Assembly (NCBI GenBank): GCA_013112725.1
Contig: JABFFZ010000012.1
Location: 1-64,000 of the forward strand
DNA length: 64,000 nucleotides
Reading direction: 5' to 3'
Origin: Chloroflexota bacterium
Lineage (GTDB): Bacteria; Chloroflexota; Anaerolineae; Promineifilales; Promineifilaceae
Shown here piece after piece: positions 22,731-63,804 of the stretch (the stretch's first letter is position 1; each line of letters opens with the position of its first letter). A model generated the notes under the pieces. The model saw only the letters and a program-made list of their open reading frames with translations, made no database searches and was not told the DNA's origin. Both the position numbers and the translations under genes were made by a program.

Positions 22731-22773
22731 TGGGGTAATTGGGTAATTGGGTAATTGGGAGATTGGGAGATTC
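22731..22773. repeat. One-sided array of AATTGGGT and GATTGGGA words
   Basis: Three copies of gggtaattgggtaatt pass into gggagattgggagatt. It joins directly to the Calx-beta remnant, suggesting the breakpoint of a deletion. Confidence 0.7.
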
Positions 22774-22962
22774 CCCTTCACCACCGTGCCTCTTCTCGAC
22801 AATGATCTGGACGACGGTGACCGCACGTTCAGCCTGGTTTTGAGCAATCCGGTGAATGGCGAGTTGGGGAACGATACGGCCGTGGGCACAATCCTGGACG
22901 ACGACAACCCCCCACCCATCCCCGGCTGGCAGGTTTATCTGCCCGTCATCCTGAAGCCCTAA
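22774..22962 (+). pseudogene. C-terminal remnant of a Calx-beta surface protein
   Basis: The frame encodes LLDNDLDDGDRTFSLVLSNP, then TAVGTILDDDNPPP, which is the second half of a Calx-beta domain, and ends GWQVYLPVILKP. That tail matches the C-termini of two other secreted proteins in this window. No signal peptide or first half of the domain remains; the fragment begins at the short-word repeat. It could not fold alone. It contains one ACGGCCGT palindrome, unlike its flanks, so it probably belongs to the older chromosome. Confidence 0.75.
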
Positions 22963-44917: not shown

Positions 44918-47900
44918 ATGTCCGCACTTATTGGCCGATTATCTGGTGCCCATCCCGCGCGCCGCCGCTTACTGCCGGTGGTATTTGTGGCTGTGGCCCT
45001 CTTGTTGTATCTGGTAAAGGCGGCCCTGCCGATCACGGCCGTATCCGAATCTCCCCTCCACGTCGCCTGGCAGCAAGCCCAGCGGGCCGGCGCCTATACT
45101 TTCCGCGCCGACATCCGCCAGCGTTCCATCCCCGTGGCCAGCGTTCTAAACGTGGGCCGAACTCACCGGGAGGATAATCTACACCTGCAAGGCACGGCCG
45201 ACCTGTCTGCCCAATCCTTGAACCTGACGCTTTGGTCCAACGGCGGTAATATCCTGGACGCTACCAGCGGCACCGAAGTGGAAGTGCGTGACGGCCGTAC
45301 CCGCATCCGCCGCGAAAATGGCCCCTGGGAAGAGCTGCCCAACGTCCTGGATACCTTCGCCCCCCAGGGCGACTTCCTCAGCTTCCTCGTCGCCGCCCAA
45401 AACGTGCAATCCTTCGACGAAGCTCAGGACGGGTCTCCCAATCTCCAATCCCCCCACTTCACCTACGACATTGACTCCGCCGCCTTTGCCGTCTACCTGC
45501 GCGACCAACTGCAAAACCAGGCGCTCCGCCAGGGGGAGCTGCTGCCCGGCACGACGCTGGACGTTTCGCAACAAATCCGCGAGATGCGCGGTACAGGCGA
45601 ACTGTGGCTGGATGCTAACGGCTATCCGCAGCGCCAGGTGACACGCCTGCAATTCCCGCCCCAGGACGGCTACTGGGTGGAAACAGAAATTGTGGTCACA
45701 TATGGTTTCCCCAACACGGCCGTTTCCTTTTTCTCCTCCACCCACCTCAGCCGTTACCTGCCCATTCTGCAACAAGGGTTATGGCTCACGGCCATCGTCA
45801 TGTTGCTCACCGGCCTCATTCTCTTTTTCACCCTGCGTTATCCCCGCTCCCGTCCCGTCTATTACACCATCACCCTCACCTTCATCTTCTCCACCATCTT
45901 TGGCCCACTGCTGCAATCCGTCCATGCGGAATCCGTGTATAACCGCCGCAGCCAGCGCCAACAGGTGCAAGAGAGCTACCAGCAGCAGGTAGACGGCCGT
46001 CAGGAATTCATCAACGCCCGCGAACAGTCTGCTGCCAACGACCTGGCCCAGACCAGCCCGGAGGTGTTGGCGGCCATCCGCAGTGGGAATTATGAATTAG
46101 GAATTATGAATTATGAAGAAAGAGATTCTTCCTTCATAAATCCTGATTCGTTCGGCTCTGCTGATAGTGATCAGGATGGCCTCACCGACTACGAGGAATC
46201 CATCCTGGGCACCAATCCAGACAACGCGGACACCGATGGCGACAACCTGACCGATTGGCAAGAAATTCAAGGGTTTACGCACAACGGCCGTCAGTGGCAC
46301 ACCAACCCCCTTGACTCCGACACCAACCAGGACGGCATTGCTGACGACCGCGAATGGAACAACTCAGACGCCCACCATGCCACCTGGGACACCGACAACG
46401 ACGGCATTCCCGACCTCTTCGATGAAGACAACGACAACGACGGCGTGCCTGACCGCCTGGACATTTCCCCCTTTAGCCAGCACAGCCAGACCTTCAACCA
46501 GAACAACCCCTTTTCCCTACTTCTCAATGGCCTGACGCCGGGCGAACCCACCTTTGCGGAATTTCAGGTACGCCCCACCAACCCCGACCATCTCTGGTAT
46601 GCCCTCAGCGCCTATAACTGGCCCGCTGACTCCCTGGGCAACATCAAAGACATTACCAATGCCACTTTCCCCGACAGTCTGGGCGACATCCAACTGGTAC
46701 CGGCCCTGGAAATCCAGATGAGCAGCGCCAACGCCAATCTGCCCCTCACCGATCCCATCGCCGTTGTGCCCATCCGCCCCATTCCCGGCGTCATCCCCCA
46801 GACCAATATCCTTAGCGGCACATTGACCCTGGCCCCCAGCGGCAATGACCTGACTGTCACCTTCGACACTAACCGGTTGGACAATCTGACGGTACGCCGG
46901 GGTACCTGCGCCGCGCCGGGGGACATCGTCACCACCATCCCCTTTCCTACCAGCGGACTCACGACCATCATGTCCAATGTCCGTTTGCAGGATTGGGCCG
47001 ACGGCAGCCACATCATTGTCGCCCGTGAATTTGACCCACGTAACCTGATCAGCTGCGCCCAAATTCCGCACATCCCCTTTGTGGGTAACCAGATGGTAGA
47101 TGAGGAACAGCTACGGCCGTATCAGATCACCGTGCGCGACATCTCCCCCGACCGCAACACCAAAGCCGTCTACGTTCCCCTCAGCCTGATCACCGATGAC
47201 CGCACTGGCCAGCGCGTCGCTTTCAGCGGCAAGATGCTCTATCTGCCCGGCGGTAGTTGGCAAAGCGTCCACCAGGTTCGTTTTGTCTGGACGGTGAACA
47301 TGCTCACCGACGAAGTGTGCACCTATGGCGCCATCCTGCCCAGTGTGCCCAACGGCTGTTACCAGCAGCAAAACGACGTCGCCCGCGTCATCCACACCTA
47401 CCCCGAAGCATGGCGGCTTACCGGCCTCAACGTCGTTGAAGAGCGACAGGTAGACGCCGTTACCATCTACGAAGACCCGGCGCTGGACAGCAACCTGCAC
47501 AGCGACAGCGCCATTATCCCCCTGGCCTATGGGCTAGACCTGGCCTATCTGCAAGGGCGCGACTGCGATACGGCCGACGCCGACGGCAACTGCCAGGGCG
47601 ACGGCCAGCGCGACATCTTGCCCGCCGAAATCCAGCGCCGCTTCCATCATCCCACCAACCAGTTTGTGCCCGCCGTACAGCGCTGGCACATTGAAAACAT
47701 CCTGCGCGTTAACCGCGCCCAATATGAAACCCTCGGTGACTTTGTACGCGCCACCGCCGAAGACACCACTACACCCATTCTGGACACCTTTACGCCTTAC
47801 TGGTCAGCCACGAATCCCATCACTCCTACCCTTCTCTTCGCCTATGATTACCGCTACCGCAGCCTGAACCTGGACAGCCTGGCTGCCGCCGATGGCACGC

Positions 47901-50900
47901 TCACCTGGAACAGCGCCAACCGCCTCACCGTCAACTTTGCCGGGAACGGCGGCGTCCCGGTCATCACCCAGGCCAACTTGAAACTGGCGGCGTATGGGTA
48001 TGACGACACGGCCGTGTCCTGGTCACGCCTCACCCCCGAAGCCATCTGGGACATGGCCGGGCAGCGTTACGCCGCCGACTTCGCCGACGAACCCGACCCC
48101 GACGTGGCCGACGGGATGCTCATGGGCGTTCAGCTTTATTTCCTGGCCCTCTCGCGTGGCGTCCAGAATGTCGTTCAGATTGGGGATATTACCGTGCCCG
48201 CCTACCGTGAACCGGAAGACGTCACCGCTTCACGGGCGATACAGGCCGGCGCGGCCGGCGTCGGCCGTTTCATCACCGGCGTCATCTACGTAGGCAACGT
48301 ATTGGTCACCAGCGGTGACATCCCCAGCAGTGTATGGGCCAGGCTCGGCCGCACCTTTACCGAGGGGCTATCCAATCCGGTGCGCTCCATCAATGCCAAC
48401 CTCATCCGCCCCGTGCGCGAATTTTTTCAGGGGTTAAGCCGCGTCCAAATCGCTCTGGTCGTCACCATTGTCGCCGTTGTGGTAGTGGCATTGGTGGCCG
48501 GCGTCGTGGTCGCGCTCATTGCCGCCCGTGCCCATTCCAGCAGTGGCACGGTAGATTTTATCGTGGGTATTGCCGTGCTGGTGGCCGCCATCATCTTCTT
48601 TGTCCTGAGTGTGGTTTTGCCCATTCTGGACTTGATTGGCCTGATTCAGGTGGGCACGGTGGCTACCACCACCGTCAACGGCTCGCGGCTGGCCTCCAGC
48701 TTCACCAGCGTCAAGGCCAACGCGCTGGCTGCCGCCATCGGCCTGATCATCGAACTGGGCGTCATCTGGGGCGTTTTCATTTATGAGATTGCCAGCGGCA
48801 ACATTGACCCCAACTCCGCTGAATTTTCACAATTGCTGGCCGTTTCCCTGGCCGCTTCTCTGGTCGCTGCCCTGTATGCTGCCCTGGGGGCCATTCCTGG
48901 CGTTAATGTCATCATTGGTCTGGCGGCCGTGGTAGACCTGATCATCCTGGGACTGTGTAAACTTGGTTTTGCCGGGGCGCTGCAAGATTTCCAGGGAAAT
49001 GGCTGCTTCAGCATTCGCAACCAGCTCACCCAGGAAATTGCCCGCTTCCTCTACCGGGGTAACATCATCTTCAACTTTGAAGATTACTCTGACTCTATCA
49101 GTCTGCGCTCTCTGGATATGCGCCTCACGAACCCCACCGCCGGGCTGGCCGCCGGGAACAGCCTGGTTTTCACCGCCACCGTCAGCACCAATCTGCGTCC
49201 CTCGGTGCCAGATGGCCCGGCTACCAGCGCTTACCGGCAAACCAATATCCGCAGCACTGGCCTCAACTACCAGTTGAGCAGCACCGCTAACGACTCGCTG
49301 GCTGCCAGCCGCGATAGTAACCGGGATGGCTGGACGTTTTATGACTACGGCCGTGTCCGTTTCACCATCGCCGCCATCCCCGTCCCCTACCAATTCACCT
49401 TAGACCTGTACCGGGGGGTTTACCAGACGCGCACCATCGTCAGCGACCCCATCCCCCTGACGGCCGGCATCAACACCACCGTTCCCCTCCACTTCAACGT
49501 CGGTCTGGCCATTCCCGCCTGGTCGTGCGCCGCCGACATTTGCAATAACTTCAACGAAGACGCCAGCTTCACCCAATCCCTGGGCAGCAACTTTTACTTT
49601 GACGTTTTGCCCGCCACTGTGAACGAATTTGCCAGCTCTGACTGGACGCCTGGCTGGCTGGCTCACCAACGCGACCTGGACGGTGACGGTTTGCTCAGCA
49701 TCACCCATGGTGGCAACGACCCGGATGACACCACCTTTGACGCGGACGGCGACGGCCTTACCGACAACCTGGAAATTGGGTATCAAAGCCTGGGTACGGC
49801 CAATGGCGGCGGGTATATCAATCCGCTTAACCGGGACACCGATGGCGATGGCCTGTGTGACGCCGACGAACTGCGCGTGGGCAGCAACCCCAACCTGGCC
49901 GATACCGACGGCGATGGCCTGACGGACGGCGAAGAGGTGTTCCGCCAGGATCGCTGCGATATGGACAACGATGGCAACACCACCGAATGGCTTGGCGGCT
50001 GGCTGTTCACCTATGCCTCCGGCCAGGGTACCCGCATCAGCTCCGATCCCACCCAACGAGACGGCGATGACGACGGCATGAACGACCGCACCGAGCGCGA
50101 ACTGCACCTGCTCGACGCCATCGCCTTCCCGTTTCATCCCGACGTGTTCAATGAGGCCCCCATCGGCATTTACCCATCTACCAGCGATCTGGACAATGTG
50201 GTACGGCCGAACACCGCCATCATCTACACCGCCACCGTGCAAAACAACTTCGACGTGCCCCTTTATGCCGCCGGTTTGTTGACGACCACTTTCCCCACTG
50301 CCTTGGGCGGCGGGCAGCCGGTGACCCCCTTCACCATTTTTCAGGGAGACCGGGCCACCTATGCCGCCAACCTCACGGCCGTCGGCAATTCCCAGACCGT
50401 CACCATCCAAAACAGCGCCCACGCCGAAGCGCAAAGCTCCGACCAGATGACGGCGCCGCCCGGCCTCTTTTTTGACCTGAGCGAAAATCTGCCCTTCACC
50501 ATTGACAATGACCAACCTACCAGCCAGCTTACCAGCGGCGACTATGTGCGCGCCGGCGGCTACCGCGTCATCGGCGGCAGCGCCAGCGACCCCACCTCCT
50601 ACGTGCAGCGCGTGGAAGTCAGCGTGGATGGCGGCGTGACCTATGCCCCGGCCAATGGCGCCGAGGCGTGGGCCTTCACCTGGGACGTGCCCGCCGCCGA
50701 AGGGCCGTTCACCCTGCGCACCCGCGCCGTTGACGCCGTAGATTTTGTGGAATCGCCGGTCAACAGCGTCACCGTACTCATTGACGGCCAGCCGCCGGCG
50801 CTCACCAGCAATGACACCGGCAACCCGGTGCAGCGCGCCACGCGCAACCTGCAAAACACCTGGACGGTGGCCCTCAGCGGTACGGTTAGCGACCCGCCCG

Positions 50901-53900
50901 TTGGCGGCAGCCCCGGCAGCGGCGTGGGCCGGGTGGAAGTGTGGCTGGAACCGTTGAGCAATGGCTGGCAAACGGCCGTGCTCACCGGCAATAACTGGAA
51001 CATCGCCTACGCCCTGGCGGCCACCGACAACAGCGGCAACGCCGTGGTGGAACCCACCGGCCAGTACACCGTCACCATCCGCGCTTTTGACAATGTGGAA
51101 AACGTGGCCGACGAAGCTGCTTACCTGGTCTTCCCCGTCCGCGTAGACAACAGCGCGCCGCAGACGCAGTTCGATCCGGTGGGGTTGGAAACGGCCGTTA
51201 TCTCCCCCAACGAAACCGCCATCACCCGCACTACCTTCATCAGCCAGCCGCTCACCTTCACCGGCCTCATCACCGACGCCACCAACGCCGTCGGCGCAGG
51301 TGTAGACGAACTGCAAATCGCCTTCGTGCCCGCTTCCCTGCTAGATACCCTGGCTGCCCCCAACCTGCTTATGTACTTCAACGAACCGGCGGGCAGCACT
51401 GACTTTGCCGAAGTATCCGGCAACAACCATGAAGTCATTTGTTACATCGGCTCCGTTGACGCCTGTCCCCGCGCCAGCGGCAGCGGCGGCGCGTTTGGCG
51501 GCGCTATCAACTTCGACGGCGTGGATGACTTTCTGGACATCGGCGCTAACATTCCCGAATCCGGCGCCACCGTCGCCCTCTGGTTCAACACCACCTGCGA
51601 CAACTGTGGCCTGCTCATTGCCGACCAGGGACTCCTCGGCGCGGGCGGCTATGATCGCAGCCTCTACCTGCAAAACGGCAACGTCTGCTCCTTTGTAGAC
51701 GGCGCGGCCTTCAACGAAACCATCTGCACCACCGGCACGAACTGGGCCGACGGCCAATGGCATCAGGTCATCCACACCCTGGGCAGCAGCGGCAACATCC
51801 TCTACGTGGATGGTGACGCCCGCGCCAGCGGCGTCCTCACCGCTTCCGCCTTCACCGCCCAAGACGGCCTCAGCCTGGGGTATGCGCCAGAAGCAGCCAA
51901 TGATTACTTGAACGGCCGTATGGACGAATTGGCTATCTACACCACCGCATTCACGGCCGATGAAGTGGACACCCTCTACCGCCGCTGGCAGCCGGTGACG
52001 CTGGCCCACTCTGGCCCGGACATCACCACCAGCCAGTGGGCCTACACCCTCACCGAGGGCGTTTTGGAAGGATATTACCAGGTAGATATGCGCGGCGCAG
52101 ACGTGCTAGGCAACCGTGAGGATGAACAGCGCGGCCTATGGGCGCAGTGGAACGGCCTGATTGACCTGGCCCCGCCGCAAGTCAGCCTGGGCGTGCAATA
52201 CAGCGGCCTGGGCGCGGCGGCCCAAACCACCTACAGCGCCAACATCACCGACTTCAATTTAGTGGTGGATGGTTATGCCGGCCCCTGTGCCCTGGAACCA
52301 AACGACGCCCACTACGACGATTCAGCCTGGTGGCAGACGATCAGCAACAATACCCCCCGGCTCAACCAGTTGACGCCGTCCTGTACCGTCAGCGGTTTCC
52401 AGAGCGATGCTGTCTTCGCCCGCGCCTGTGACCAGTTTGGCCGCTGCTCTGCTGCCATACCTGACCAGTACCAGCTCTTTTTTGCCAGCTACCCGCGCCT
52501 CACCTACGAGTTTAACCGCATTGAGCGCGCCAACCTGCTGGGCGGGGCCAACCGCCAGGTGGTGATTGATGGGTTGGACCACGTCAGCGGCATTGCCCTG
52601 GACGAGCAGGCCGGCTACCTGTATTGGCTGGAAATTGACCGGGATGGGGGGAACAACGGCCGTATCCGCCGCGCCTCCCTGAACGATTATATTCCCCAAG
52701 ACCTGATCACCGGCCTGGCCTACAGCCCCGCCCGCCTGCCCCGTACCGGTGGCCTGGCCGTCAACCCTGCCAGCAACCGCCTTTTCTGGACACAGCAAGG
52801 GCAAATCTGGGCCGCCAACGTAGACGGCTCCGGCGCCGCCCTGCTGCATACGCTGGCCAATGACGCCACCGCCGGTGAAATCGTCCTGGATCGCCCGAAC
52901 GGCCGTATCTACGGCATTGCCACCGCCAGCTTTAGCAACAGCTACCAGCCTTCCATCTTCCGCCTGAACGTGGATGGCAGCGGCTTCCAGACCATCTACA
53001 CCGCGCCCGTTCAGCCAGAAGTGTTTAATATGACTGACCTGGCGCTGAGCCAGGATGGCGCTACCCTGTACTGGATTAACAATTTCCAGCTCTGGCGGGC
53101 CAACAGCGATGGCAGCGGTGTCGCCAATCTGGGATATACTGCCAATTCACGGCAAGACGTTGGTTCGCTCCTGGTCAGCCCGGTAGGGCAGCAGGTGTAT
53201 TACACCAACTTCAGCGACATTGCCGTCACCGATTTGACCACCGGCCAAACCAGCACGGTGTTGCCCGCGTTGTGGAGCTACAGCCCACCAATAGACATGT
53301 ACACCCACCACGCCGCAGGGGTGATGACCGCCGGCCCGATCCCGGCGGCGGCCATCACCCGCGTAGACCTGGCGCTAGATAAGCAGCTACAGAGCGGCCT
53401 GGCCGTCACCGGCAGCACGCTGATCTATGACTTGGTAGTGCAAAATCGCAGCTATCTGGACGCCACCAACGTGACGCTGGTAGACACGCTGCCCAATGGC
53501 GTCACCTACCACAGCGTCAGCTCCACGCCGCCTGGCGTCACCTGCCAGAGCAGTGCCGGGATGGTAACTTGCGACCTGGCGACGCTGAATGGCGGCACGG
53601 CCGTGACCGTCACCCTCACCGTCAATGTTACCGGCGCCGCCAGCGGCACGCTGGTCAACACCGCCGCCGTCTCTGCCCGGCAAGAGGACAGTAACCCGGC
53701 CAACAACAGCGTCACCCTGACGCGCGGCCTGGTAGTGCCCCCCGCCACCGCTACTCCGGTTAGCCCGGCGGTGGGCCGCTTCATCTATTGGAGCAGCAAC
53801 TATGACATTCGTCGTCTGCGCCTGGATGTGCCCGGCAGCCCGGAAACGGTTATCCGGCTCCCCTTCCAGGAGGGGCTGGTGGATGGTGTGGCGGTGGATC

Positions 53901-56900
53901 AGGTGAACGGCCGTCTCTACTTTGCCCGCCTGGGGGCCGATGTCATCCAGACGACTAACCTGGATGGTAGCAATTTGCAAAGCATCAGTGTGCCCGGCCC
54001 GGCGCGCGCTGTCACCGTAGACCCGGCCCATAACGCCCTCTTCTGGATTGATGCCGATGCAGACGTCATCTACCGCGCCAATCTGGACGGCAGCAATCAG
54101 ACCATCATCGTCACCGGCCTGATTGCCGGTAAAGACCTGCTGGTGGACAGCCTGCGCGGCTATCTGTATTGGTCAGATGGCACGGGCACTTTGTATCGCA
54201 GTGGGCTGGATGGCACGGCCGTGCAGCGGCAGCGTGGCCCCTCTGCCTGGGCGTATGGCCTGGCTCTGGACAGTTACGGGCAGCGGCTCTACTGGATCAA
54301 CCCCAATGAGGGTCTCATCCAGTCTGCGCCCCTGGACGGCGGGCAGGGCATCACCTCTTTGCCGCAAACCCTGGTCTGGCCCTACAGCGGCCTGATGATT
54401 GATGCTGCCGCCGGTAAGCTGTACTGGTCGCAAAGCGAAACCCTCTACCGCGCCAATGTGGATGGCAGCAACCAGGAAACGGTGGCGACCGGCGTGCCAA
54501 ACCTGAGCCAGGGCGGAATTCTGGCCCCGTTGGCCCAGGTGTACACGCCCCCCTTCCCCACGCCTACCCACACGCCCACGCCCACCAACACACCCACGCC
54601 GTCCAATACCCCCACGCCCACGCCGACGAACACGCCCGCGCCCACGGCCACGCCTACCACCACCCCCTTCCCGCTGCCTTCGCCCACGCCGGGCGGTCCG
54701 CCGGCTGCCGCCAATCTCTTCTTTGGCGCCTTTGACCTGCTGCAACGCGCCCCCATTACCGGCTGCGCCGACGGTAGCTGTGTCACCACCATTTACGATA
54801 ACCCTGGCAACTCCACTATCAGCGACATTGCCGTTGATTCTTTCAACAACAAGGTGTATTGGTTCTCGTCAGACGTTATCGGTGAAATTCATCGCGCCAA
54901 TCTGGATGGGAGCGATGAGGAAGTGATCTTCAGCAATCCCACCTTGTTCATCAACGAGATGGCGCTGGATGCGGTGGCTGGTTATCTCTACGTTACGGAC
55001 CTGGACGGCGGCATTCACCGCATGACGCTGGACGGCCAGCAACTGACGCCCATTCTCAGTGGCCTGGGTTTTATTTCTTACATCACCCTTGACCCCATCC
55101 GTGAAAAGATGTATTGGCTGAATGAAGACAATTACCCGGCCAAAATCATTTACCGCGCCAATCTGGACGGCAGCCAGGTAGAGGTGGTGCTGGAAGATGA
55201 TGGCACACAAGTGCCACCGCCGATTGGTTCGTTTGTGGTGGGCCTGGTGATTGACCCTGACCATAACTGGTTGTTGTGGACGTATCGCGGTGGGTTTGAA
55301 GACCCTTACGGCCGTATCCGCCGTGCTGACCTGAATTGTGGCGAACCGTTCCCCCTGCCGGAAAGCTGTCTGCGCACCATGTGGGAAGATGGCGACCTGG
55401 TACCGCGTGGGCTTGATCTGGATCGGACGACGCTGCAACTGGTCTTTGGCACCGAACATATTTGGGACCCAGATTTCGATATGCAGCAGATGCCTCTGGA
55501 TGGCATGGGGCCGGCTACCGTGCTGGTGGGCAATATGAGCGGCGGGCCGCAAGCGGTGGCGCTGCACTATCCTTACCCGCCGGGCTGCGCGGCCATTGAC
55601 CCAGACGCCTATGAGCCAGACAATGCCTTTACGCAGGCAACGGCCGTGACTCTGGAACAGGCCAGTGTTGACCACAACTTCCACACCCTCAGCGACAGTG
55701 ACTGGCTTTACTTTGATGCCTCCCGCGCCATCATTTACACCATCAACACTGGTTCCCAGACCGGGCGTGGCGACACCTATCTGGAATTGTACGATACAGA
55801 CGGTGCCACCCTGCTGGCCGCCGACGACAACAACGGCGCGGGCCTGAACAGCCGCCTGCAATTCACGCCGTCGGTGGACGGCCGTTACTACCTGCGCGTC
55901 AGCAACCTCTCTGGCGTCGCCTCTTGCGACACCGTATATGGCGTCTACCTGGACAGCGCCCCGGCTACGCCGGATGATGGTGACTCGGCCCCGCCCACGC
56001 ATCAGTTACCGCTGCTGCACAGCGCCGTCATCACCCCCGCTCACGAAAGCCACATTCCCAGCCTGGGGCCGGTAGATGTGACCGCCGCCGTTGCCGCCCT
56101 CGACTTTGCCCGCGCCGTGACCATTACGGTAGATGGCGCGCCGCTGGCAACAACCACCTATCCCAACGGCACGGTGACGGAAACGCTCTTCACCGCCCCT
56201 TGGACGCCGCCTGCCGAAGGCACATACACCCTCTCTTCGGTGGCCGAAGATTGGGCCGGCCGGGTGCAGACAATGACAATACCGATACAGGTGGTGGTGG
56301 ACACGGCCGTGCCCACCATTGCCATCGCCCCCACCGTTTACACCAGCACCCACCTGCTGGCCGACGGCCAGATCGCCTTCCGCGGTACGGCTGGCGACAG
56401 CGCCGGTCCGCCGCAGGTCAGCGCCAGTGTAGACGGCCATCCCTTCCGCGCCGCCACCCTGAGCGGCAACAACTGGCAACTGCCCTGGCTGGTGGGGGAT
56501 ATGGACGGTGACTCCTTCCCATTGGTAGCCCGCGCTACTGACCGCGCCGGGCAAACGGGTCAGGCCAGCCAAACCGTCACCGTAGACGTTGTGCCGCCAC
56601 AGGCTGGAACGATCACTCTTCTGCACAACAGCGAAGTGCTAACCGCCAGCCAGACCATCTATCAGGCCAACCCAGAACTGGAAATCACCTGGCAGCCGTT
56701 CAGCGATGGCAGCGGCCTGCAAGGATATTACGTCGGCTGGACGACTGCGCCCACGCCCACCCTGGCGGCGCTCACCTTTGTACCCCCCGCCGGGCCGCTG
56801 CAACACATCCAGACTGCCGGCGAAGCAGAAATCCGTTACGCTCACGTGATTGCCATTGACAGCTATGGCAACCGCAGCCAGCACACCTTTGGCCCGTTTT

Positions 56901-59002
56901 ACGTAGATGGCCCGGCCACGCCTGACCTGATCAGCCACCCGGATGGCGGTGTTTTCAGCAGTTACCTGGGCTGGCTGGACAGTGGCGCCACACAGTTGGG
57001 CGGCGATTTCGCCTTGCTGAACGGGAACTACGGCCAATCCAGCCAGGGCGGGCCGCAGCGTTTTTACCTGAGTTGGGATGACGCTGCCCTGCGTATGGCC
57101 TGGGACGGGGCCAATTGGGATACGGACGGCGACTTGTTCATTTATCTGGACACGGCCGTTGGCGGCGCATCCACCCTTTACAACCCATACACCGGCACGC
57201 CCACCACCACCATCAGCTTCCCCACAGGGATGACACCCAATTACGCCATCCTGGTGGAAGACAGCAGCACGGCCACCCTCTTCACCTGGACGGGCAGCGT
57301 CTGGCAGCCGGTTGGCCCGCTACCGCTCACCGATAACGGCTCACCGATTACCGATCTCTACCTGCCCTTTGCCCAGGTGGGCCTCACCAACAGCAGCACC
57401 TTACGCCTCCTGGCTGTGGCCAGCGAGGAAGAGGGGCTGCGCCTGTGGGCGGCCGCGCCAGACAAGAACCCGCTGAACAGCGAATGGGTGGTGAACCCCA
57501 TCGCCATTGGCCGCGACCTGAATGTGTATAGCCTGACTTTGTATCACCAGACGCCGCTGGCATTGGGTACGTTGCCGGACGACGGCCGTTTTGCGGAGAG
57601 CGATTTGCAGGTGAGTGTGAGTGCCAGCCCGGCCGGCGTCAGCGTGGGCTACCTGGGCAGCAGCCTGTTGGATGTGTTGACGCCCGGTGACCGCATTGAC
57701 GCTGACGGTGATGGAAACATTGACGTCGAGTTGCCCATTGTGCTGGATCAACCACCGCTGGCAAACGGTCAGACAGTCACCTTTACCATCCAGTATGCCA
57801 ATCATGGCCCGGTAACGGCGACGAATGTGGTGGTGAACCTGGAAGATTGGGGCGCGCTGACGCTGACGGGCAATCCAAACATCTCTCTGGGCAATGTGGG
57901 GCCAGGGGAAACGGGGGCAGTGGCGGTCACGGCCGTTGTTAACAGCGCCAATGGTATCTCGGCAGAGTTGACGGCCGTGATCGGCGACGGGTGGCGTGGC
58001 ACACACGATTGGGCCTGGGTGCAGCATGACCTGGACGCCACCCCGCCCGACCTGGCGCTCACTTTCCCGGTGGAGTGGATACGGCCGTTTACCCAGACCT
58101 TCCAGGGCACGGTGGTAGACGCCTCTGGTCTGAACAGCGTGACCATCGAATGGCAGCCGCTGCCTGGCGGCCCGGTGCAAACGGACGCCTGCAACGACGC
58201 CAATCCACTGGATAACACCTGGGCCTGCCCGGTGAATGTGGGGAACCTGAGCGGCTTCACCCAGGTGCGGGTGCGCATCGCCGGCATTGACCGCGCCAGC
58301 AATGCCAGCGGTTTCAGCGCCCCCATCTTCCTGACGGTAGACAGTACCGCGCCCAGTGTTGTCCTCAGCGACGCCTTTGAAGCGGCCATTGCCGATGGTT
58401 TCCTCAGTGCCAAAGAAAATTTGATCAGCGGGCAGGTGGTGGATGATTACCGCGCCAGCCTGATCGAGATTTGCACCGAGGCGGACAATCCGGTGACGTG
58501 CAGTGTACGCCCGGTGGTACCGGGTGATACGCCCACCGGTGACTGGTCATTGCGGCTGCCGGTGGATGGCGCGGATGGGGAGCCGGTGACGCTGGTCTTT
58601 TACGGCCGTGACGCCGTCGGCAATCGTTCCGTCCCCGTCATTCGTTCCTTCCAGATTGACAGTACACCGCCGCAGTTGACGGCCGTGCAGCACATCACCC
58701 AGATCAATCTGAGCAACCCACCCATCGGCCCTATCCTCAGCGGTACAGTGACGGACGGCGGCGAGGTGGGGGAGGTGCTGGTGCGCGTCAGCCGGCCTGA
58801 TGGCGGCGTGGTCTGGCTGCCCGCCAGCCGCAATGGCCAAAACTGGACATTCCCGAACAGTTTTACCGCGCCGGGCACGTACCAGTTGATGGTGGAGGCG
58901 TGGGATGTGGCGGGTAACGGCCGTGCCAGCCAGCCCTTTACGTTGGTGGTGACGGGTACGGCCGTGCAGCGATTGTACCTGCCGCTATTGTTCAAGCCGT
59001 AG
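44918..59002 (+). CDS. Giant multidomain surface protein (4,694 residues)
   Basis: Starts with a signal-type helix (about 18-38). Two more helices lie at about 285-335. Two calcium-binding thrombospondin type 3 regions (DSDQDGLTDYEE-like) lie at about 415-521 and 1586-1675. A cluster of about four to five helices sits between them (about 1177-1351). Then come Ig-like/Big domains, a LamG domain (about 2146-2358), three YWTD-type propellers (about 2528-2795, 2952-3202, 3266-3555), a DUF11 domain (about 2815-2942), a Pro/Thr linker (about 3208-3265), a PPC domain (about 3558-3682), more Ig-like domains, a beta-sandwich like CBM9 (about 4007-4188) and a second DUF11. It ends RLYLPLLFKP. TGGAGG precedes the ATG. 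Probably a cell-surface adhesin or matrix protein. Confidence 0.93.
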   Translation: MSALIGRLSGAHPARRRLLPVVFVAVALLLYLVKAALPITAVSESPLHVAWQQAQRAGAYTFRADIRQRSIPVASVLNVGRTHREDNLHLQGTADLSAQSLNLTLWSNGGNILDATSGTEVEVRDGRTRIRRENGPWEELPNVLDTFAPQGDFLSFLVAAQNVQSFDEAQDGSPNLQSPHFTYDIDSAAFAVYLRDQLQNQALRQGELLPGTTLDVSQQIREMRGTGELWLDANGYPQRQVTRLQFPPQDGYWVETEIVVTYGFPNTAVSFFSSTHLSRYLPILQQGLWLTAIVMLLTGLILFFTLRYPRSRPVYYTITLTFIFSTIFGPLLQSVHAESVYNRRSQRQQVQESYQQQVDGRQEFINAREQSAANDLAQTSPEVLAAIRSGNYELGIMNYEERDSSFINPDSFGSADSDQDGLTDYEESILGTNPDNADTDGDNLTDWQEIQGFTHNGRQWHTNPLDSDTNQDGIADDREWNNSDAHHATWDTDNDGIPDLFDEDNDNDGVPDRLDISPFSQHSQTFNQNNPFSLLLNGLTPGEPTFAEFQVRPTNPDHLWYALSAYNWPADSLGNIKDITNATFPDSLGDIQLVPALEIQMSSANANLPLTDPIAVVPIRPIPGVIPQTNILSGTLTLAPSGNDLTVTFDTNRLDNLTVRRGTCAAPGDIVTTIPFPTSGLTTIMSNVRLQDWADGSHIIVAREFDPRNLISCAQIPHIPFVGNQMVDEEQLRPYQITVRDISPDRNTKAVYVPLSLITDDRTGQRVAFSGKMLYLPGGSWQSVHQVRFVWTVNMLTDEVCTYGAILPSVPNGCYQQQNDVARVIHTYPEAWRLTGLNVVEERQVDAVTIYEDPALDSNLHSDSAIIPLAYGLDLAYLQGRDCDTADADGNCQGDGQRDILPAEIQRRFHHPTNQFVPAVQRWHIENILRVNRAQYETLGDFVRATAEDTTTPILDTFTPYWSATNPITPTLLFAYDYRYRSLNLDSLAAADGTLTWNSANRLTVNFAGNGGVPVITQANLKLAAYGYDDTAVSWSRLTPEAIWDMAGQRYAADFADEPDPDVADGMLMGVQLYFLALSRGVQNVVQIGDITVPAYREPEDVTASRAIQAGAAGVGRFITGVIYVGNVLVTSGDIPSSVWARLGRTFTEGLSNPVRSINANLIRPVREFFQGLSRVQIALVVTIVAVVVVALVAGVVVALIAARAHSSSGTVDFIVGIAVLVAAIIFFVLSVVLPILDLIGLIQVGTVATTTVNGSRLASSFTSVKANALAAAIGLIIELGVIWGVFIYEIASGNIDPNSAEFSQLLAVSLAASLVAALYAALGAIPGVNVIIGLAAVVDLIILGLCKLGFAGALQDFQGNGCFSIRNQLTQEIARFLYRGNIIFNFEDYSDSISLRSLDMRLTNPTAGLAAGNSLVFTATVSTNLRPSVPDGPATSAYRQTNIRSTGLNYQLSSTANDSLAASRDSNRDGWTFYDYGRVRFTIAAIPVPYQFTLDLYRGVYQTRTIVSDPIPLTAGINTTVPLHFNVGLAIPAWSCAADICNNFNEDASFTQSLGSNFYFDVLPATVNEFASSDWTPGWLAHQRDLDGDGLLSITHGGNDPDDTTFDADGDGLTDNLEIGYQSLGTANGGGYINPLNRDTDGDGLCDADELRVGSNPNLADTDGDGLTDGEEVFRQDRCDMDNDGNTTEWLGGWLFTYASGQGTRISSDPTQRDGDDDGMNDRTERELHLLDAIAFPFHPDVFNEAPIGIYPSTSDLDNVVRPNTAIIYTATVQNNFDVPLYAAGLLTTTFPTALGGGQPVTPFTIFQGDRATYAANLTAVGNSQTVTIQNSAHAEAQSSDQMTAPPGLFFDLSENLPFTIDNDQPTSQLTSGDYVRAGGYRVIGGSASDPTSYVQRVEVSVDGGVTYAPANGAEAWAFTWDVPAAEGPFTLRTRAVDAVDFVESPVNSVTVLIDGQPPALTSNDTGNPVQRATRNLQNTWTVALSGTVSDPPVGGSPGSGVGRVEVWLEPLSNGWQTAVLTGNNWNIAYALAATDNSGNAVVEPTGQYTVTIRAFDNVENVADEAAYLVFPVRVDNSAPQTQFDPVGLETAVISPNETAITRTTFISQPLTFTGLITDATNAVGAGVDELQIAFVPASLLDTLAAPNLLMYFNEPAGSTDFAEVSGNNHEVICYIGSVDACPRASGSGGAFGGAINFDGVDDFLDIGANIPESGATVALWFNTTCDNCGLLIADQGLLGAGGYDRSLYLQNGNVCSFVDGAAFNETICTTGTNWADGQWHQVIHTLGSSGNILYVDGDARASGVLTASAFTAQDGLSLGYAPEAANDYLNGRMDELAIYTTAFTADEVDTLYRRWQPVTLAHSGPDITTSQWAYTLTEGVLEGYYQVDMRGADVLGNREDEQRGLWAQWNGLIDLAPPQVSLGVQYSGLGAAAQTTYSANITDFNLVVDGYAGPCALEPNDAHYDDSAWWQTISNNTPRLNQLTPSCTVSGFQSDAVFARACDQFGRCSAAIPDQYQLFFASYPRLTYEFNRIERANLLGGANRQVVIDGLDHVSGIALDEQAGYLYWLEIDRDGGNNGRIRRASLNDYIPQDLITGLAYSPARLPRTGGLAVNPASNRLFWTQQGQIWAANVDGSGAALLHTLANDATAGEIVLDRPNGRIYGIATASFSNSYQPSIFRLNVDGSGFQTIYTAPVQPEVFNMTDLALSQDGATLYWINNFQLWRANSDGSGVANLGYTANSRQDVGSLLVSPVGQQVYYTNFSDIAVTDLTTGQTSTVLPALWSYSPPIDMYTHHAAGVMTAGPIPAAAITRVDLALDKQLQSGLAVTGSTLIYDLVVQNRSYLDATNVTLVDTLPNGVTYHSVSSTPPGVTCQSSAGMVTCDLATLNGGTAVTVTLTVNVTGAASGTLVNTAAVSARQEDSNPANNSVTLTRGLVVPPATATPVSPAVGRFIYWSSNYDIRRLRLDVPGSPETVIRLPFQEGLVDGVAVDQVNGRLYFARLGADVIQTTNLDGSNLQSISVPGPARAVTVDPAHNALFWIDADADVIYRANLDGSNQTIIVTGLIAGKDLLVDSLRGYLYWSDGTGTLYRSGLDGTAVQRQRGPSAWAYGLALDSYGQRLYWINPNEGLIQSAPLDGGQGITSLPQTLVWPYSGLMIDAAAGKLYWSQSETLYRANVDGSNQETVATGVPNLSQGGILAPLAQVYTPPFPTPTHTPTPTNTPTPSNTPTPTPTNTPAPTATPTTTPFPLPSPTPGGPPAAANLFFGAFDLLQRAPITGCADGSCVTTIYDNPGNSTISDIAVDSFNNKVYWFSSDVIGEIHRANLDGSDEEVIFSNPTLFINEMALDAVAGYLYVTDLDGGIHRMTLDGQQLTPILSGLGFISYITLDPIREKMYWLNEDNYPAKIIYRANLDGSQVEVVLEDDGTQVPPPIGSFVVGLVIDPDHNWLLWTYRGGFEDPYGRIRRADLNCGEPFPLPESCLRTMWEDGDLVPRGLDLDRTTLQLVFGTEHIWDPDFDMQQMPLDGMGPATVLVGNMSGGPQAVALHYPYPPGCAAIDPDAYEPDNAFTQATAVTLEQASVDHNFHTLSDSDWLYFDASRAIIYTINTGSQTGRGDTYLELYDTDGATLLAADDNNGAGLNSRLQFTPSVDGRYYLRVSNLSGVASCDTVYGVYLDSAPATPDDGDSAPPTHQLPLLHSAVITPAHESHIPSLGPVDVTAAVAALDFARAVTITVDGAPLATTTYPNGTVTETLFTAPWTPPAEGTYTLSSVAEDWAGRVQTMTIPIQVVVDTAVPTIAIAPTVYTSTHLLADGQIAFRGTAGDSAGPPQVSASVDGHPFRAATLSGNNWQLPWLVGDMDGDSFPLVARATDRAGQTGQASQTVTVDVVPPQAGTITLLHNSEVLTASQTIYQANPELEITWQPFSDGSGLQGYYVGWTTAPTPTLAALTFVPPAGPLQHIQTAGEAEIRYAHVIAIDSYGNRSQHTFGPFYVDGPATPDLISHPDGGVFSSYLGWLDSGATQLGGDFALLNGNYGQSSQGGPQRFYLSWDDAALRMAWDGANWDTDGDLFIYLDTAVGGASTLYNPYTGTPTTTISFPTGMTPNYAILVEDSSTATLFTWTGSVWQPVGPLPLTDNGSPITDLYLPFAQVGLTNSSTLRLLAVASEEEGLRLWAAAPDKNPLNSEWVVNPIAIGRDLNVYSLTLYHQTPLALGTLPDDGRFAESDLQVSVSASPAGVSVGYLGSSLLDVLTPGDRIDADGDGNIDVELPIVLDQPPLANGQTVTFTIQYANHGPVTATNVVVNLEDWGALTLTGNPNISLGNVGPGETGAVAVTAVVNSANGISAELTAVIGDGWRGTHDWAWVQHDLDATPPDLALTFPVEWIRPFTQTFQGTVVDASGLNSVTIEWQPLPGGPVQTDACNDANPLDNTWACPVNVGNLSGFTQVRVRIAGIDRASNASGFSAPIFLTVDSTAPSVVLSDAFEAAIADGFLSAKENLISGQVVDDYRASLIEICTEADNPVTCSVRPVVPGDTPTGDWSLRLPVDGADGEPVTLVFYGRDAVGNRSVPVIRSFQIDSTPPQLTAVQHITQINLSNPPIGPILSGTVTDGGEVGEVLVRVSRPDGGVVWLPASRNGQNWTFPNSFTAPGTYQLMVEAWDVAGNGRASQPFTLVVTGTAVQRLYLPLLFKP
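46085..46135. repeat. Repeat of the AATTATGA type inside the giant gene
   Basis: gggaattatgaattaggaattatgaattatgaag is a short-word array of the intergenic kind. It encodes GNYELGIMNYEE in frame (about residues 390-402), between the second membrane segment and the first calcium-binding repeats. Confidence 0.8.
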
Positions 59003-59448: not shown

Positions 59449-60153
59449 ATGGTCATGGACGCACTGGAAAGTTATCTGTCGGCGCATCAGGCCGAACTGC
59501 CTGAAAACGATTCCCGCCTCCTGCGTGAAGTCGCTTATGAGCGCCTCAAAGACGCCTTGCGCCATGCCAGTTTGCAACCAGGTGAGCCACTCTCCGAAAA
59601 TCGCATCTCCAAAGCCTTAGGTATCAGTCGTACACCGGTGCGTGAAGCGCTGCAAATGTTGTCCCAGGAAGGGTTGGTGGAAATCATTCCGGGGCGGGCT
59701 GTGTTTGTCGCTTCTCGTTCGTTCCGGGAGGTGTTGGACGTATTGTATATGCGGCTGCTGCTAGAACCGGAACTGGTGCGTATGGTGGCAGAAACCATTT
59801 CCGCTGAACAGCTAGATATTATGTGGGATTGTTTGGACAGGATGGACACGGCCGTAGACCAGGAAGACCGCTCTGCCTGGTCCAAAGCCGACACCGTCTG
59901 GCATGAAACCCTCAGCGATGCCTGCCCTAACCGTCTGCTTGGCGAAATGGTATTGCAGATGCGCAACCGGATTCACCGCTACAGCAATGTTGATAACCAG
60001 CTCAAAATTGAACAACTGCGCCTGGGTACGGCCGAACACCGGCACATCGTGGAGCAAATTGCCCGCCGTGATGCCGAAAACGCAGCCTTAGCTATGCGGC
60101 AACATTTGGAAAGTCTTCGCAGCAATCTTTTTAGCCAGCTAATTTATGCCTGA
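59449..60153 (+). CDS. GntR-family transcriptional regulator, FCD (FadR-type) subfamily
   Basis: 234 residues (ATG 59449 or 59455). The N-terminal winged helix shows LKDALRHASLQPGEPLSENRISKALGISRTPVREALQMLSQEGLVEI, a textbook GntR domain. The C-terminal all-helical FCD ligand domain spans about 100-225, with His residues (WHETL, EHRHIVEQI) typical of the metal-binding effector site. It probably senses a sugar acid or similar metabolite and controls itself and the following sugar ABC operon. A consensus promoter with palindromic operators lies upstream. Confidence 0.94.
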   Translation: MVMDALESYLSAHQAELPENDSRLLREVAYERLKDALRHASLQPGEPLSENRISKALGISRTPVREALQMLSQEGLVEIIPGRAVFVASRSFREVLDVLYMRLLLEPELVRMVAETISAEQLDIMWDCLDRMDTAVDQEDRSAWSKADTVWHETLSDACPNRLLGEMVLQMRNRIHRYSNVDNQLKIEQLRLGTAEHRHIVEQIARRDAENAALAMRQHLESLRSNLFSQLIYA

Positions 60154-60201
60154 GCCTCGTCGGGCGATTGGCTAAATTGCCGGGCAGTAAGGCTATGTGA
60201 C

Positions 60202-60293
60202 AAAGGAGGTGGTTGTTATTTGCAGAAATGCCAATCAATGACCCGCTATTTTACCGGCAAGAAAAGTTGTACGAACGCGCGTTTTATCTCTAA
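60202..60293 (+). CDS. Possible leader peptide with near-perfect Shine-Dalgarno sequence
   Basis: AAAGGAGGTG (60202-60211) matches the 16S anti-Shine-Dalgarno complement at ten bases, though no annotated gene follows at normal spacing. In frame downstream are TTG 60213 and ATG 60228, giving a 21 to 26-codon peptide (MPINDPLFYRQEKLYERAFYL) whose TAA stop (60291-60293) overlaps the AAGGAGG site of the binding-protein gene. Spacing is too short for TTG 60213 and too long for ATG 60228, so real translation is uncertain. Translational coupling or attenuation of the ABC operon is a possibility. The site could also be a remnant. Confidence 0.3.
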
Positions 60294-60304
60294 GGAGGAG
60301 ATAC

Positions 60305-61723
60305 ATGAAACACACAGTTGGCAAATACATTTTTGGTTTTTTGGTTCTTTTTCTGGTGTTGACGCTGATCGCCTGTAGTGGTGGCAGCAGCGAAACGACC
60401 AGCCCCACGGCCACATCGGGGGCGGCTGCGCCCGCAGCCACCACCGCGCCAGAGACCGCGCCCCAGTCGAACGTTAGAGAATTAACCATATTCTGGGCGC
60501 AATGGGACCCGGCCGACTATCTGCAAGAATTAGTTAAAGATTATGAAGCCGAAACTGGCATCAAAGTCAACGTGATACAAGAACCCTGGGGTTCATTTGG
60601 GGATGTCTTCTTTGCTGAAATGGCCGCTCAGGGCACATCCTATGACATGGTCATCGGCGACAGCCAATGGCTGGGGCAGGCCACCACGCAAGGTCACTAC
60701 GTTAACCTGACCGAGTTCATGAACAGCGAAGGTCTTACCGACAGTGTGACGGAAGCCACCCTGACCTATTACGGTGAATATCCACCCGGTTCCGGCGCCT
60801 ATTGGGCCTTCCCCACTGAGGGTGACGCTAACGGTTGGGCTTATCGCAAAGACTTGTTTGAAGACCCGGCAGAGATGGCTGCTTTTGAAGAAGAATATGG
60901 CTATCCGCTGGCCCCGCCCACCACCATGTCCCAGTTAATGGATATTGCCAAATTCTTCACCCGGCCAGAGCAAGGGTTGTATGGCACGGCCATCTATACG
61001 CAGGCAGATTATGATGGGTTGACGATGGGTTTCCAGAACATGCTCTTCTCCTTTGGCGGCGATTGGTCAGATGCAAATTTCAACCCGGAAGGGGTTATCA
61101 ATTCGCCAGAATCGGTGGCGGCGCTGGAGTTTTACAAAGAGCTGTATGACTGTTGCCAGCCGCCGGGCATGAGTAATGCCTTCTTTGCCGAAGTGAATGA
61201 CGCTTTCATCAGCGGGCAGGCGGCCATGGGCATGAACTACTTTGCCTTCTTCCCCGCCCTGGCGAACCCGCAGGTGAACCCATATGCCGAATCTACCGGG
61301 TATTTTGTGAACCCGGCTGGCCCCAGCGGCGACCACTTTGCTTCACTGGGTGGCCAGGGTATCAGCATCATCTCCTACATTTCGCCGGAGCGCCAACAGG
61401 CGGCCAGAGATTTCATCCGCTGGTTTGGGCAGGATGCTGTTCAGGCCAAATGGGCAGCCTTGGGCGGGTATTCGGCCAACCGGCAAGTGTTGTCTTCAGA
61501 TGAGTTCCTGGCGGTAGCGCCCTTCAACGCGGCTTTTGCCGAGACGATGCAAATTGTTAAGGATTTCTACAACATTCCGGTTTATGGCGAACTGTTGCGT
61601 GTAGCGCAGGATGAAATGGGCCGGTATGTTGTGGGTGGTGAAGGTTCAGCACAGCAAGTGTTGGATGCAATTGCCGCCAGACATGCAGAAATTTTGAAGG
61701 ATGGGGGCTTTTTGGATCAGTAA
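60305..61723 (+). CDS. Sugar ABC transporter substrate-binding lipoprotein (CUT1 type)
   Basis: 472 residues. Signal peptide with lipobox LIAC (Cys about 24), a Ser/Thr/Ala-rich linker, then a family 1 binding protein fold: ELTIFWAQWDPADYLQELVKDYEAETGIKV at the start, EGDANGWAYRKDLFEDP in the middle. It captures a sugar or oligosaccharide outside and hands it to the permeases that follow. AAGGAGG lies six bases before the ATG. Its TAA stop is the first codon of a hairpin repeat. The region has few ACGGCCGT copies. Confidence 0.95.
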   Translation: MKHTVGKYIFGFLVLFLVLTLIACSGGSSETTSPTATSGAAAPAATTAPETAPQSNVRELTIFWAQWDPADYLQELVKDYEAETGIKVNVIQEPWGSFGDVFFAEMAAQGTSYDMVIGDSQWLGQATTQGHYVNLTEFMNSEGLTDSVTEATLTYYGEYPPGSGAYWAFPTEGDANGWAYRKDLFEDPAEMAAFEEEYGYPLAPPTTMSQLMDIAKFFTRPEQGLYGTAIYTQADYDGLTMGFQNMLFSFGGDWSDANFNPEGVINSPESVAALEFYKELYDCCQPPGMSNAFFAEVNDAFISGQAAMGMNYFAFFPALANPQVNPYAESTGYFVNPAGPSGDHFASLGGQGISIISYISPERQQAARDFIRWFGQDAVQAKWAALGGYSANRQVLSSDEFLAVAPFNAAFAETMQIVKDFYNIPVYGELLRVAQDEMGRYVVGGEGSAQQVLDAIAARHAEILKDGGFLDQ

Positions 61724-61794
61724 TCGGTAATCAGTAAGCGGTAAACGGTAATCGGCTAACCCGCCGATTACCGTTTACTGATAACCGATTACTA
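61721..61794. repeat. Hairpin array of GGTAATC words
   Basis: taatcggtaatcagtaagcg and its relatives make the left arm; cgattaccgtttactgataaccgatt is the right arm. It begins with the binding-protein stop codon and fills the gap to the first permease, inside a probable operon. Confidence 0.85.
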
Positions 61795-61813
61795 TATTGG
61801 TGAGAATAGAACA

Positions 61814-62767
61814 ATGACCAGCACATCAGCAACGGACACGGCCGTGCCTGGCGCCCAAAAACACCGCGCTCTCAGTGACCGCGCCATCATTAATCTCTTT
61901 ATCTGGCCGACGTTGATCATCTTGATCGCTTTCAACGTTTTCCCGCTGTTTTATAGCCTCTTTTTGAGCTTTACCGACTATTCGGCTATTGCCGGCCGGC
62001 CGCCGGTCTGGGTGGGCTTTGACAATTTCAACCGTGTCTTGTTTAGCGAAGATATGTGGCGAGCCTTTACCATTACCGGTCGTTACGTCTTGTTTTCCGT
62101 AGCCCTGGAGCTGGTGTTGGGCTTTGCTTTGGCCTTGCTTATCCGGGAACAGTTTCGGGGTAGTGGCATTGTCACCACCTTGATCCTGATTCCCATGATG
62201 CTTTCACCTGTAGTCGTGGGGTTGTTCTGGAAGCTCATCTATACACCCACCTTCGGTTACTTCAACTATTTGATTGGCTTTCGCAATCCCACAGTAGCGC
62301 CCGACTGGCTGGCCAGCCGTTTTGCCGGGCAGCCTATGCCGGGGCTGGCGCTGTGGGCGGTGATCATCGTGGATGTGTGGATGTGGACACCGTTCATCGC
62401 CCTGCTTATTTACTCAGGTTTAAGAGCCATACCCGATTATCTCTATGAAGCGGCCGTTATAGATCGTGCCAGTTCATGGTTCCAATTCCGGCGCATCACG
62501 CTGCCCCAGGTGATGCCGCTGATGCTCATTGCCATCCTGTTCCGCACCATCGAAGCCTTCACCAAATCGTTTGACCTGGTGATGGGTATGACCGGCGGTG
62601 GCCCCGGTGGGCAAACCGAAGTGGTAGCCGTCAAAATTTATCAGCAAGCCTTTCTGGGCCAATTCCAGACCGGGCGGGCCAGCGCCTTTGCCTATATGGT
62701 GCTGATTATTGTGATTGCTATTAGCAATCTATACATTCGCAATCTGAACCAGATGAAAGAAGGGTAG
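61814..62767 (+). CDS. Sugar ABC transporter permease (MalF/UgpA type)
   Basis: 317 residues with six helices, the first at about 32-55 (INLFIWPTLIILIAFNVFPLFYSLFLS). The EAA loop reads YLYEAAVIDRASSWFQFRRITLPQV and docks the ATPase. GGPGGQTEVVAVKIYQQAF near the end is typical for MalF-like permeases. It pairs with the next permease. The start follows GTGAG eight bases upstream. One ACGGCCGT falls in the N-terminal codons (Thr-Ala-Val), just before the first helix. Confidence 0.95.
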   Translation: MTSTSATDTAVPGAQKHRALSDRAIINLFIWPTLIILIAFNVFPLFYSLFLSFTDYSAIAGRPPVWVGFDNFNRVLFSEDMWRAFTITGRYVLFSVALELVLGFALALLIREQFRGSGIVTTLILIPMMLSPVVVGLFWKLIYTPTFGYFNYLIGFRNPTVAPDWLASRFAGQPMPGLALWAVIIVDVWMWTPFIALLIYSGLRAIPDYLYEAAVIDRASSWFQFRRITLPQVMPLMLIAILFRTIEAFTKSFDLVMGMTGGGPGGQTEVVAVKIYQQAFLGQFQTGRASAFAYMVLIIVIAISNLYIRNLNQMKEG

Positions 62768-62805
62768 GAGGGTATTGCTATACGCCCCTGCCGCGAGAGT
62801 TTGTC

Positions 62806-63804
62806 ATGGCAATATTTGAAGAAACAGGCCCCCGCCATCCGGTAACGGAAAGCACACGGGTAGATAAGGTACACCCCCGCGCCAGGCTGGCCAAAAACGT
62901 GCGCGCCATTATAGTCATTATTGTCGCCATCATGCTGCTTTTCCCTGTGTTTGTGATGATGATGACCGCCTTTAAGTCTCGGTCGGATGTGGTTTCCATC
63001 CCCCCTAAACTCATCTTTGAGCCAACGCTCGAAGGGTTCGTCTTTCTGCTCACCGAGCGTTCCCAACTCAGCGGTGTGGCGTTGGAAGAAGCCAGGGCCA
63101 ATGCGGACGAATTGGGTATCTTTGGACAGGTGGCGCTGCGCAACGGTCAGCGCATTACTGGCCCCAGTGACTTCACCATCCGCCTGCGCAACTCGGTCAT
63201 CATTGCTTTTGGCGCGACGGTGGCTTCGGTGACATTAGGTTTGTTTGCCGCTTACGCCTTTAGCCGTTTTGATGTGCCCGGCAAAGGTGACCTGATGTTT
63301 TTTATCCTCAGCGGCCGTATGCTGCCGGCCGTGGTCGTCACCATCCCCATCTTCCTCATGTACCGTCAGTTGGGTCTGCATGATACCCACGCGGGCATGA
63401 TCCTGATTTATACCGTGTTTAATCTTTCGCTGACGGTGTGGCTGTTGAAGGGGTTTATTGATGAAATTCCACGTGAGTATGAAGAGGCGGCGCTGGTAGA
63501 TGGTTACAGCCGCTTCCAGGCATTTTACAAAATTGTGGTACCTCAGGCGGCTACCGGCATTGCGGCCACTACCGTGTTTAGCTTGATTTTTGTCTGGAAT
63601 GAGTATGCCTTTGCTTTGATGCTCACCAGCCAGAAGGCGCGCACCGCGCCACCGGCCATTGCCACCATGTTAGGGCGGGGCGGCATTGAATGGTCGGCCA
63701 TTGCGGCGGGCACCCTGGTGTTTCTGGTTCCGGTTCTGATTATCATCTTTGCCTTGCGGCGGCATTTGCTGCGCGGGGTGACGTTTGGAGCGATCAGGCA
63801 GTAA
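62806..63804 (+). CDS. Sugar ABC transporter permease (MalG/UgpE type)
   Basis: 332 residues. Six helices; the EAA loop reads REYEEAALVDGYSRFQAFYKIVVPQ. A long loop between helices 1 and 2 (about 65-125, with LTERSQLSGVALEEARANAD and FGQVALRNGQRITG) is larger than in MalG and has the look of the UgpE/glycerol-like or AraQ variants that face the binding protein. It starts 38 bases after the previous permease and completes the channel. Its TAA stop is part of the next repeat. Confidence 0.94.
   Translation: MAIFEETGPRHPVTESTRVDKVHPRARLAKNVRAIIVIIVAIMLLFPVFVMMMTAFKSRSDVVSIPPKLIFEPTLEGFVFLLTERSQLSGVALEEARANADELGIFGQVALRNGQRITGPSDFTIRLRNSVIIAFGATVASVTLGLFAAYAFSRFDVPGKGDLMFFILSGRMLPAVVVTIPIFLMYRQLGLHDTHAGMILIYTVFNLSLTVWLLKGFIDEIPREYEEAALVDGYSRFQAFYKIVVPQAATGIAATTVFSLIFVWNEYAFALMLTSQKARTAPPAIATMLGRGGIEWSAIAAGTLVFLVPVLIIIFALRRHLLRGVTFGAIRQ

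Follow-up and report, generated by a model that had tools for sequence, protein, structure and literature searches.

What is the role of a short C-terminal tail that recurs on otherwise unrelated proteins of one bacterium? This question is raised by a stretch of 64,000 nucleotides (the window, positions 1-64000) from contig JABFFZ010000012.1 (C12) of a Chloroflexota bacterium, in which three open reading frames end in similar residues around a Y-L-P core. We find that the excess of such tails in this genome is far beyond chance, and the sequence data suggest that the YLP tail very probably serves as a cell-surface tag; that it is a sorting tag is well supported, and we infer a receptor that reads it. 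An earlier note on this DNA had described three YLP-type tails on secreted proteins, and all three can be read directly where it had placed them. The first, LYLPLLFKP (58973-58999, forward strand, stop codon at 59000-59002), which is also matched by the genome-wide pattern described below, ends a giant exported protein of 4694 amino acids (44918-59002, forward strand, C-terminus RLYLPLLFKP). This protein contains DUF11, laminin-G, propeller-like, PPC and Big_13 immunoglobulin (Ig) domains, and the tail directly follows the last Ig domain (Big_13), which reaches residue 4678. The second, YLPVTTK (31235-31255, reverse strand), lies downstream of a TPTPTP linker in a CARDB-domain protein of 295 amino acids with a signal peptide (31232-32119, reverse strand, C-terminus HYLPVTTK). 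Whereas these two proteins are exported, as had been claimed, the third supposed secreted host is a 71-amino-acid remnant of a tail-bearing Calx-beta-like protein (22747-22962, forward strand, C-terminus QVYLPVILKP; tail YLPVILKP at 22936-22959). It resembles the tail-bearing C-terminus of an intact protein of the same genome (L016:16615-17751; 45% over 58 amino acids in BLAST), Calx-beta is undetected in it by Pfam alone, and our signal-peptide rule finds no signal peptide in it, so that it is not itself a secreted protein.

The genome of origin is available as a 5.5-Mb assembly that is 83% complete. A DNA-level search for Y-L-P-[LIV]-..-[K/R]-P-stop returned 27 sites, compared with one for the reversed pattern, and the broader form Y-L-P-[LIV]-[LIV]-x-[basic or similar]-stop returned 54 sites, compared with three for its reversed control. 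To count proteins, we used about 1.1 Mb of stretches of this genome, some located at tail sites and some picked blind, with genes called by a simple codon model. The tail is present in 53 of the 861 sampled proteins, where residue composition predicts 0.35; the blind stretches and the window together hold five tails among 373 proteins, namely four signal-peptide proteins and the remnant. A signal peptide was called for 45 of the 53 tail proteins, two are interrupted where a contig or stretch ends, and six lack a signal. Among these six, L105 and L113 are apparently frameshifted or truncated, the start of L125 seems to have gone unrecognised, L133 starts near a contig end and the window remnant is a fragment; the tail of L106 (IFLPIVD) is probably due to chance. 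The enrichment among signal-peptide proteins that the earlier note had asked for is pronounced, the tail being found on 45 of 268 SPI-class proteins but on 6 of the 484 for which no signal was predicted (Fisher p = 1e-15).

Position by position, the tail reads I/V/L, Y, L, P, V/I/L, I/V, a variable residue, K or R, and then either P-stop or stop. The core is near-invariant among the 53 tails (Y 50/53, L 52/53, P 53/53), 49 of the proteins end zero to one residues past the K/R position, the distance from Y to the protein end is 6-10 amino acids and there is no membrane helix. In 319,134 amino acids, the motif occurs 51 times at the C-terminus versus twice internally. The codons vary synonymously (TAC 26, TAT 24, all four Pro codons, all three stops), which points to selection on the protein and not to a DNA repeat. 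The tail hosts include subtilases, M36 and M23 peptidases, and Calx-beta, PKD, DUF11, CARDB, SdrD_B, beta-helix, Ig and propeller proteins, and a MAFFT alignment of 50 of them has no continuous block in common other than the last 8-10 residues; the hosts are otherwise unrelated. A Pro-rich linker precedes 16 of the 53 tails. In an AlphaFold2 model of a C-terminal Ig, linker and tail family from sister genomes, the domain has a predicted local distance difference test (pLDDT) score of 95-97 and its last strand extends to residue 152, whereas residues 153-170 have no secondary structure and a pLDDT of about 65-72; in this prediction, the tail thus extends freely from a flexible linker beyond the last strand. 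The model of the window CARDB protein alone was unusable (pLDDT 39). One open frame, L083:2-3196, contains the tail-like sequence RVYLPLVIKP followed by about 17 further residues, possibly through loss of a stop codon. The window is also rich in an octamer palindrome, ACGGCCGT, which occurs 142 times in it, compared with 1.7 expected, and resembles a highly iterated palindrome (HIP1-like). The sampled stretches of the genome of origin contain about one copy every 500 bp. The palindrome is also frequent in every genome of the genus and in several of the family (G006, G007, G018, G020), and not present in the stretches read of G008, G019, G197, G049 and G164. As four of the eight tails ending in RP coincide with ACGGCCGT, the terminal proline may be incidental in those.

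The tail is conserved at the amino-acid level. CARDB orthologues were searched for in relatives with a tail-less query, so that retention is unbiased by the tail itself, and the four sister genomes holding a full-length orthologue have all kept it: the proteins end in YLPVTTK (genome of origin and G002), FLPVTTK (G003), FLPVTIKES (G001) and FLPVTIK (G004), each after a TPTPTP linker. In the more distant G005, the open frame of the CARDB match ends in a Pro-Thr stretch. These orthologues were used in place of a comparison of tail and linker (97% vs 80% identity; 102 synonymous vs 13 nonsynonymous), which was discarded as biased because its loci had been chosen by their tails. Across 84,980 species, the strict KP form was found in 58 stretches, of which 55 belong to Chloroflexota; the other three (Algibacter, Beggiatoa and Bernardetiaceae) lie in open frames of 10-19 amino acids and were rejected as chance matches. 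The broader tail abounds in the same genus (40-60), has a patchy distribution in the family, occurs outside the class in families f28, f29 and f39, and is at control level in most other Chloroflexota lineages. The f29 form is YLP[LIV][LIV]xR without the proline and is found on signal-peptide proteins wherever the gene start is readable.

We propose that, in Anaerolineae and Chloroflexia-like lineages, this YLP-box, with the consensus [IV]-Y-L-P-[VIL]-[IV]-x-[KR]-(P), marks proteins exported through Sec for retention at the surface. After export, the free tail would be captured at the outer face of the envelope by a receptor that recognises Y-L-P, the pair of hydrophobic residues and the basic residue near the carboxy end. 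Capture would most likely occur by non-covalent docking and not by sortase-type cleavage, as the tail lacks a membrane helix by which a substrate could be held for an enzyme and persists where neither sortase nor exosortase is detectable. Overall, we consider it reasonably probable that the YLP-box is a sortase-independent docking or retention tag of this kind. The wider proposal, that Chloroflexota possess a surface-display system without sortase or exosortase, in which an ultrashort, helix-less C-terminal peptide on at least 50 unrelated proteins of one genome is held non-covalently by a dedicated receptor, is more tentative.

Several observations weigh against this proposal. Signal peptides were called by a crude, home-made rule that over-calls them, and the absence of the tail from all 30 lipoprotein-type proteins sampled in the genome of origin is a contrast of only p = 0.012, drawn from a tail-enriched sample. 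Neighbour clustering in the genome of origin revealed no obvious partner, a Pfam tally of neighbours in four other genomes revealed no recurrent one, and no receptor was found. One clade of sortases, described below, does follow the number of tails across families f1 and f2 (Mann-Whitney p = 0.0007, or 0.004 when counted per genus), and the lack of a profile match in a draft genome does not prove that the gene is missing. The step from a tag to surface attachment, and hence surface retention itself, is drawn from context.

An alternative would be that the tail is an export or stability cap, whose hydrophobic-basic end aids release from Sec or a chaperone or shields the C-terminus from carboxypeptidases. 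It is in keeping with such a role that the tail occurs only on exported proteins, that its hosts are of every size and that the last residue is often proline, since a C-terminal proline resists carboxypeptidases. However, the exact Y-L-P requirement is stricter than a cap would need, the sampled lipoproteins are likewise exported but lack the tail, and the proline may be incidental where it falls within the genome-wide palindrome, so that we regard this explanation as unlikely.

Alternatively, YLP-box proteins might be substrates of a sortase that cleaves within the YLP core and joins them to the envelope. The earlier note had suggested looking for a co-occurring protease or transpeptidase, and the search among sortases and exosortases yielded no such partner. 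Exosortase could be ruled out as the tail reader: the tail has neither a PEP motif nor a helix, and PF09721 was not found in most of the tail-rich genomes tested, including G000, G013, G018, G020, G049, G059, G092 and G100. Sortases (PF04203) are present in most genomes, tail-rich and tail-poor alike, and their copy number, also considered, has no simple relation to the tails. Only one clade, with a TL[VI][TS]CWP active site (CWP clade; SH-aLRT 96 in a tree of 80 sortases), tracks tail number. This clade is found in nearly every tail-rich genome, including those of Chloroflexia-like families, and in f1 and f2 the tail excess is greater with it than without it. It was not found in the assembly of the genome of origin, which is 83% complete and lacks the full 3.7 kb of a close relative's locus, so that it may lie in an assembly gap; no LPXTG-type tripartite C-terminus was recognised among the sampled proteins of this genome. 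However, profile searches gave no PF04203 match in three draft genomes with verified tails, namely G197 (five tails, on signal-peptide proteins), G021 (at least six C-termini) and G022 (two). The relaxed ends in G021 (L167, L173, L264, L273, L276) read YLPLIQN, YLPIIRH, YLPVIQSN, YLPIIVKQ and YLPIIPHQ. G193, G088 and G201 had also been suggested as sortase-free by their counts and were dropped, their tails being mostly chance under a stricter pattern. Furthermore, G025 has about eight tails and only sortase types outside the CWP clade, G102 and family f61 show CWP-type motifs and essentially no tails, and the YLP tail lacks a membrane helix. In f1, the family to which the window belongs, the gene of the CWP sortase forms a conserved pair with the adjoining gene for a small protein with a signal peptide, an SdrD_B-like region, LP[EQ]SG, a membrane helix and RRR (L181-L200; e.g. 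L183:941-1513 and 1578-2366), which is evidently its dedicated substrate. Because tails occur in G197, G021 and G022 without a sortase match and in G025 without the CWP clade, and because the CWP sortase adjoins its own substrate in f1, a sortase is probably not required for the tail, and we consider the CWP explanation quite unlikely. Among the sortases themselves, some domains lie at the C-terminal end of very large open reading frames of up to about 3,600 amino acids (L247-L250 and L252 in G102, G042, G062 and G205; Anaerolineae families f15 and f17), and one paralogue in G048 (L244:1254-1976), a tree neighbour of the intact copy L243, has its active-site Cys replaced by Ser (TLITS) and is possibly an inactive duplicate. 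Lastly, the tail might simply be the final beta-strand of the domains before it, shared through descent or through convergent folding. Its residues are beta-prone and many tails do follow beta-sandwich domains, but it also follows unrelated domains and Pro/Thr linkers, is the sole block common to 50 proteins and lies outside the fold in the AlphaFold2 model, and we regard this explanation as very unlikely.

Returning to docking by a receptor, the search for such a receptor has been narrowed, with exosortase out, sortase apparently unneeded in at least three genomes and the sampled lipoproteins free of tails, and the tail-rich, tail-poor and sortase-free genomes identified here provide a basis for a gene-content comparison. 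If the receptor exists, a large bacterial phylum would have a new means of holding proteins on its cell surfaces, and a display tag of eight residues would be of use in engineering.

Two further features were noted. Downstream of the giant gene, positions 59449-63804 of the window hold an ordinary uptake operon with no relation to the tail, made up of genes for a GntR-type regulator, two ABC permeases and a solute-binding protein of lipoprotein type. In addition, an AT-rich, near-palindromic repeat of about 54 bp composed of GGGTAATTGAGTAATT-like units is dispersed on both strands at L183:897-950 and more than 40 places in the genome of origin, and a related run lies at about 22734-22775 of the window.

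How does the tail compare with known systems? NCBIfam release 20 contains two models, NF053834 (ultrashort_CTERM) and NF050076 (sort_motif_YLP), whose descriptions call the YLP-box a putative sorting motif and name no machinery, so that NCBI curators have independently come to the same view as the guess of a C-terminal sorting signal, which our data support. The remnant of the window and L007:7908-8396 score 13.7 and 14.6 against NF053834, above its cut-off of 10 bits, and the two scored tails reach 13.2 and 12.7 against NF050076, below its cut-off of 15. The models match 10 and 8 of 50 tail proteins (E<=2); the NCBIfam scan reported neither the giant nor the CARDB tail, and HMMER filters may drop so short a match. 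Our tail and the NCBIfam YLP-box are alike in their extreme C-terminal position on exported proteins, their length (10-11 positions) and their YLP core, and we see no essential difference between them. No paper on the motif was found in the literature searched. With LPXTG/sortase (PF04203), the tail shares the logic of a C-terminal tag on Sec-exported proteins, an LP pair and the presence of sortases in most of these genomes. It differs in having neither LPxTG nor a membrane helix and in mostly ending right after one K/R; the motif, helix and basic tail of LPXTG substrates are absent, and a sortase is not found in every tagged genome, which, these being draft genomes, is a strong rather than an absolute distinction. 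PEP-CTERM/exosortase (PF09721) is likewise based on a short motif at the C-terminus of numerous, diverse proteins with signal peptides and was discovered by like logic (PMC1569441). The YLP tail differs from it in lacking both PEP and a membrane helix. Rhombosortase, myxosortase and type IX secretion system (T9SS) tags are longer and consist either of a helix followed by a basic tail or of an Ig-like domain some 80 amino acids long; no conserved domain of that length was found here, the sharing being limited to the last 8-10 residues. In other phyla, these tags are carried by the same host families that bear YLP here: several tail hosts belong to the NCBI 'choice-of-anchor' B, J, Q and T families or are M36 proteases, whose relatives carry T9SS, rhombosortase or myxosortase tails, and in these hosts the YLP tail occupies the place of those anchors. 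Taken together, the motif is already known as a putative sorting signal through NCBIfam, and what we add is the census of its hosts, the contrast with lipoproteins, the phyletic picture and the dissociation from sortases and exosortases.

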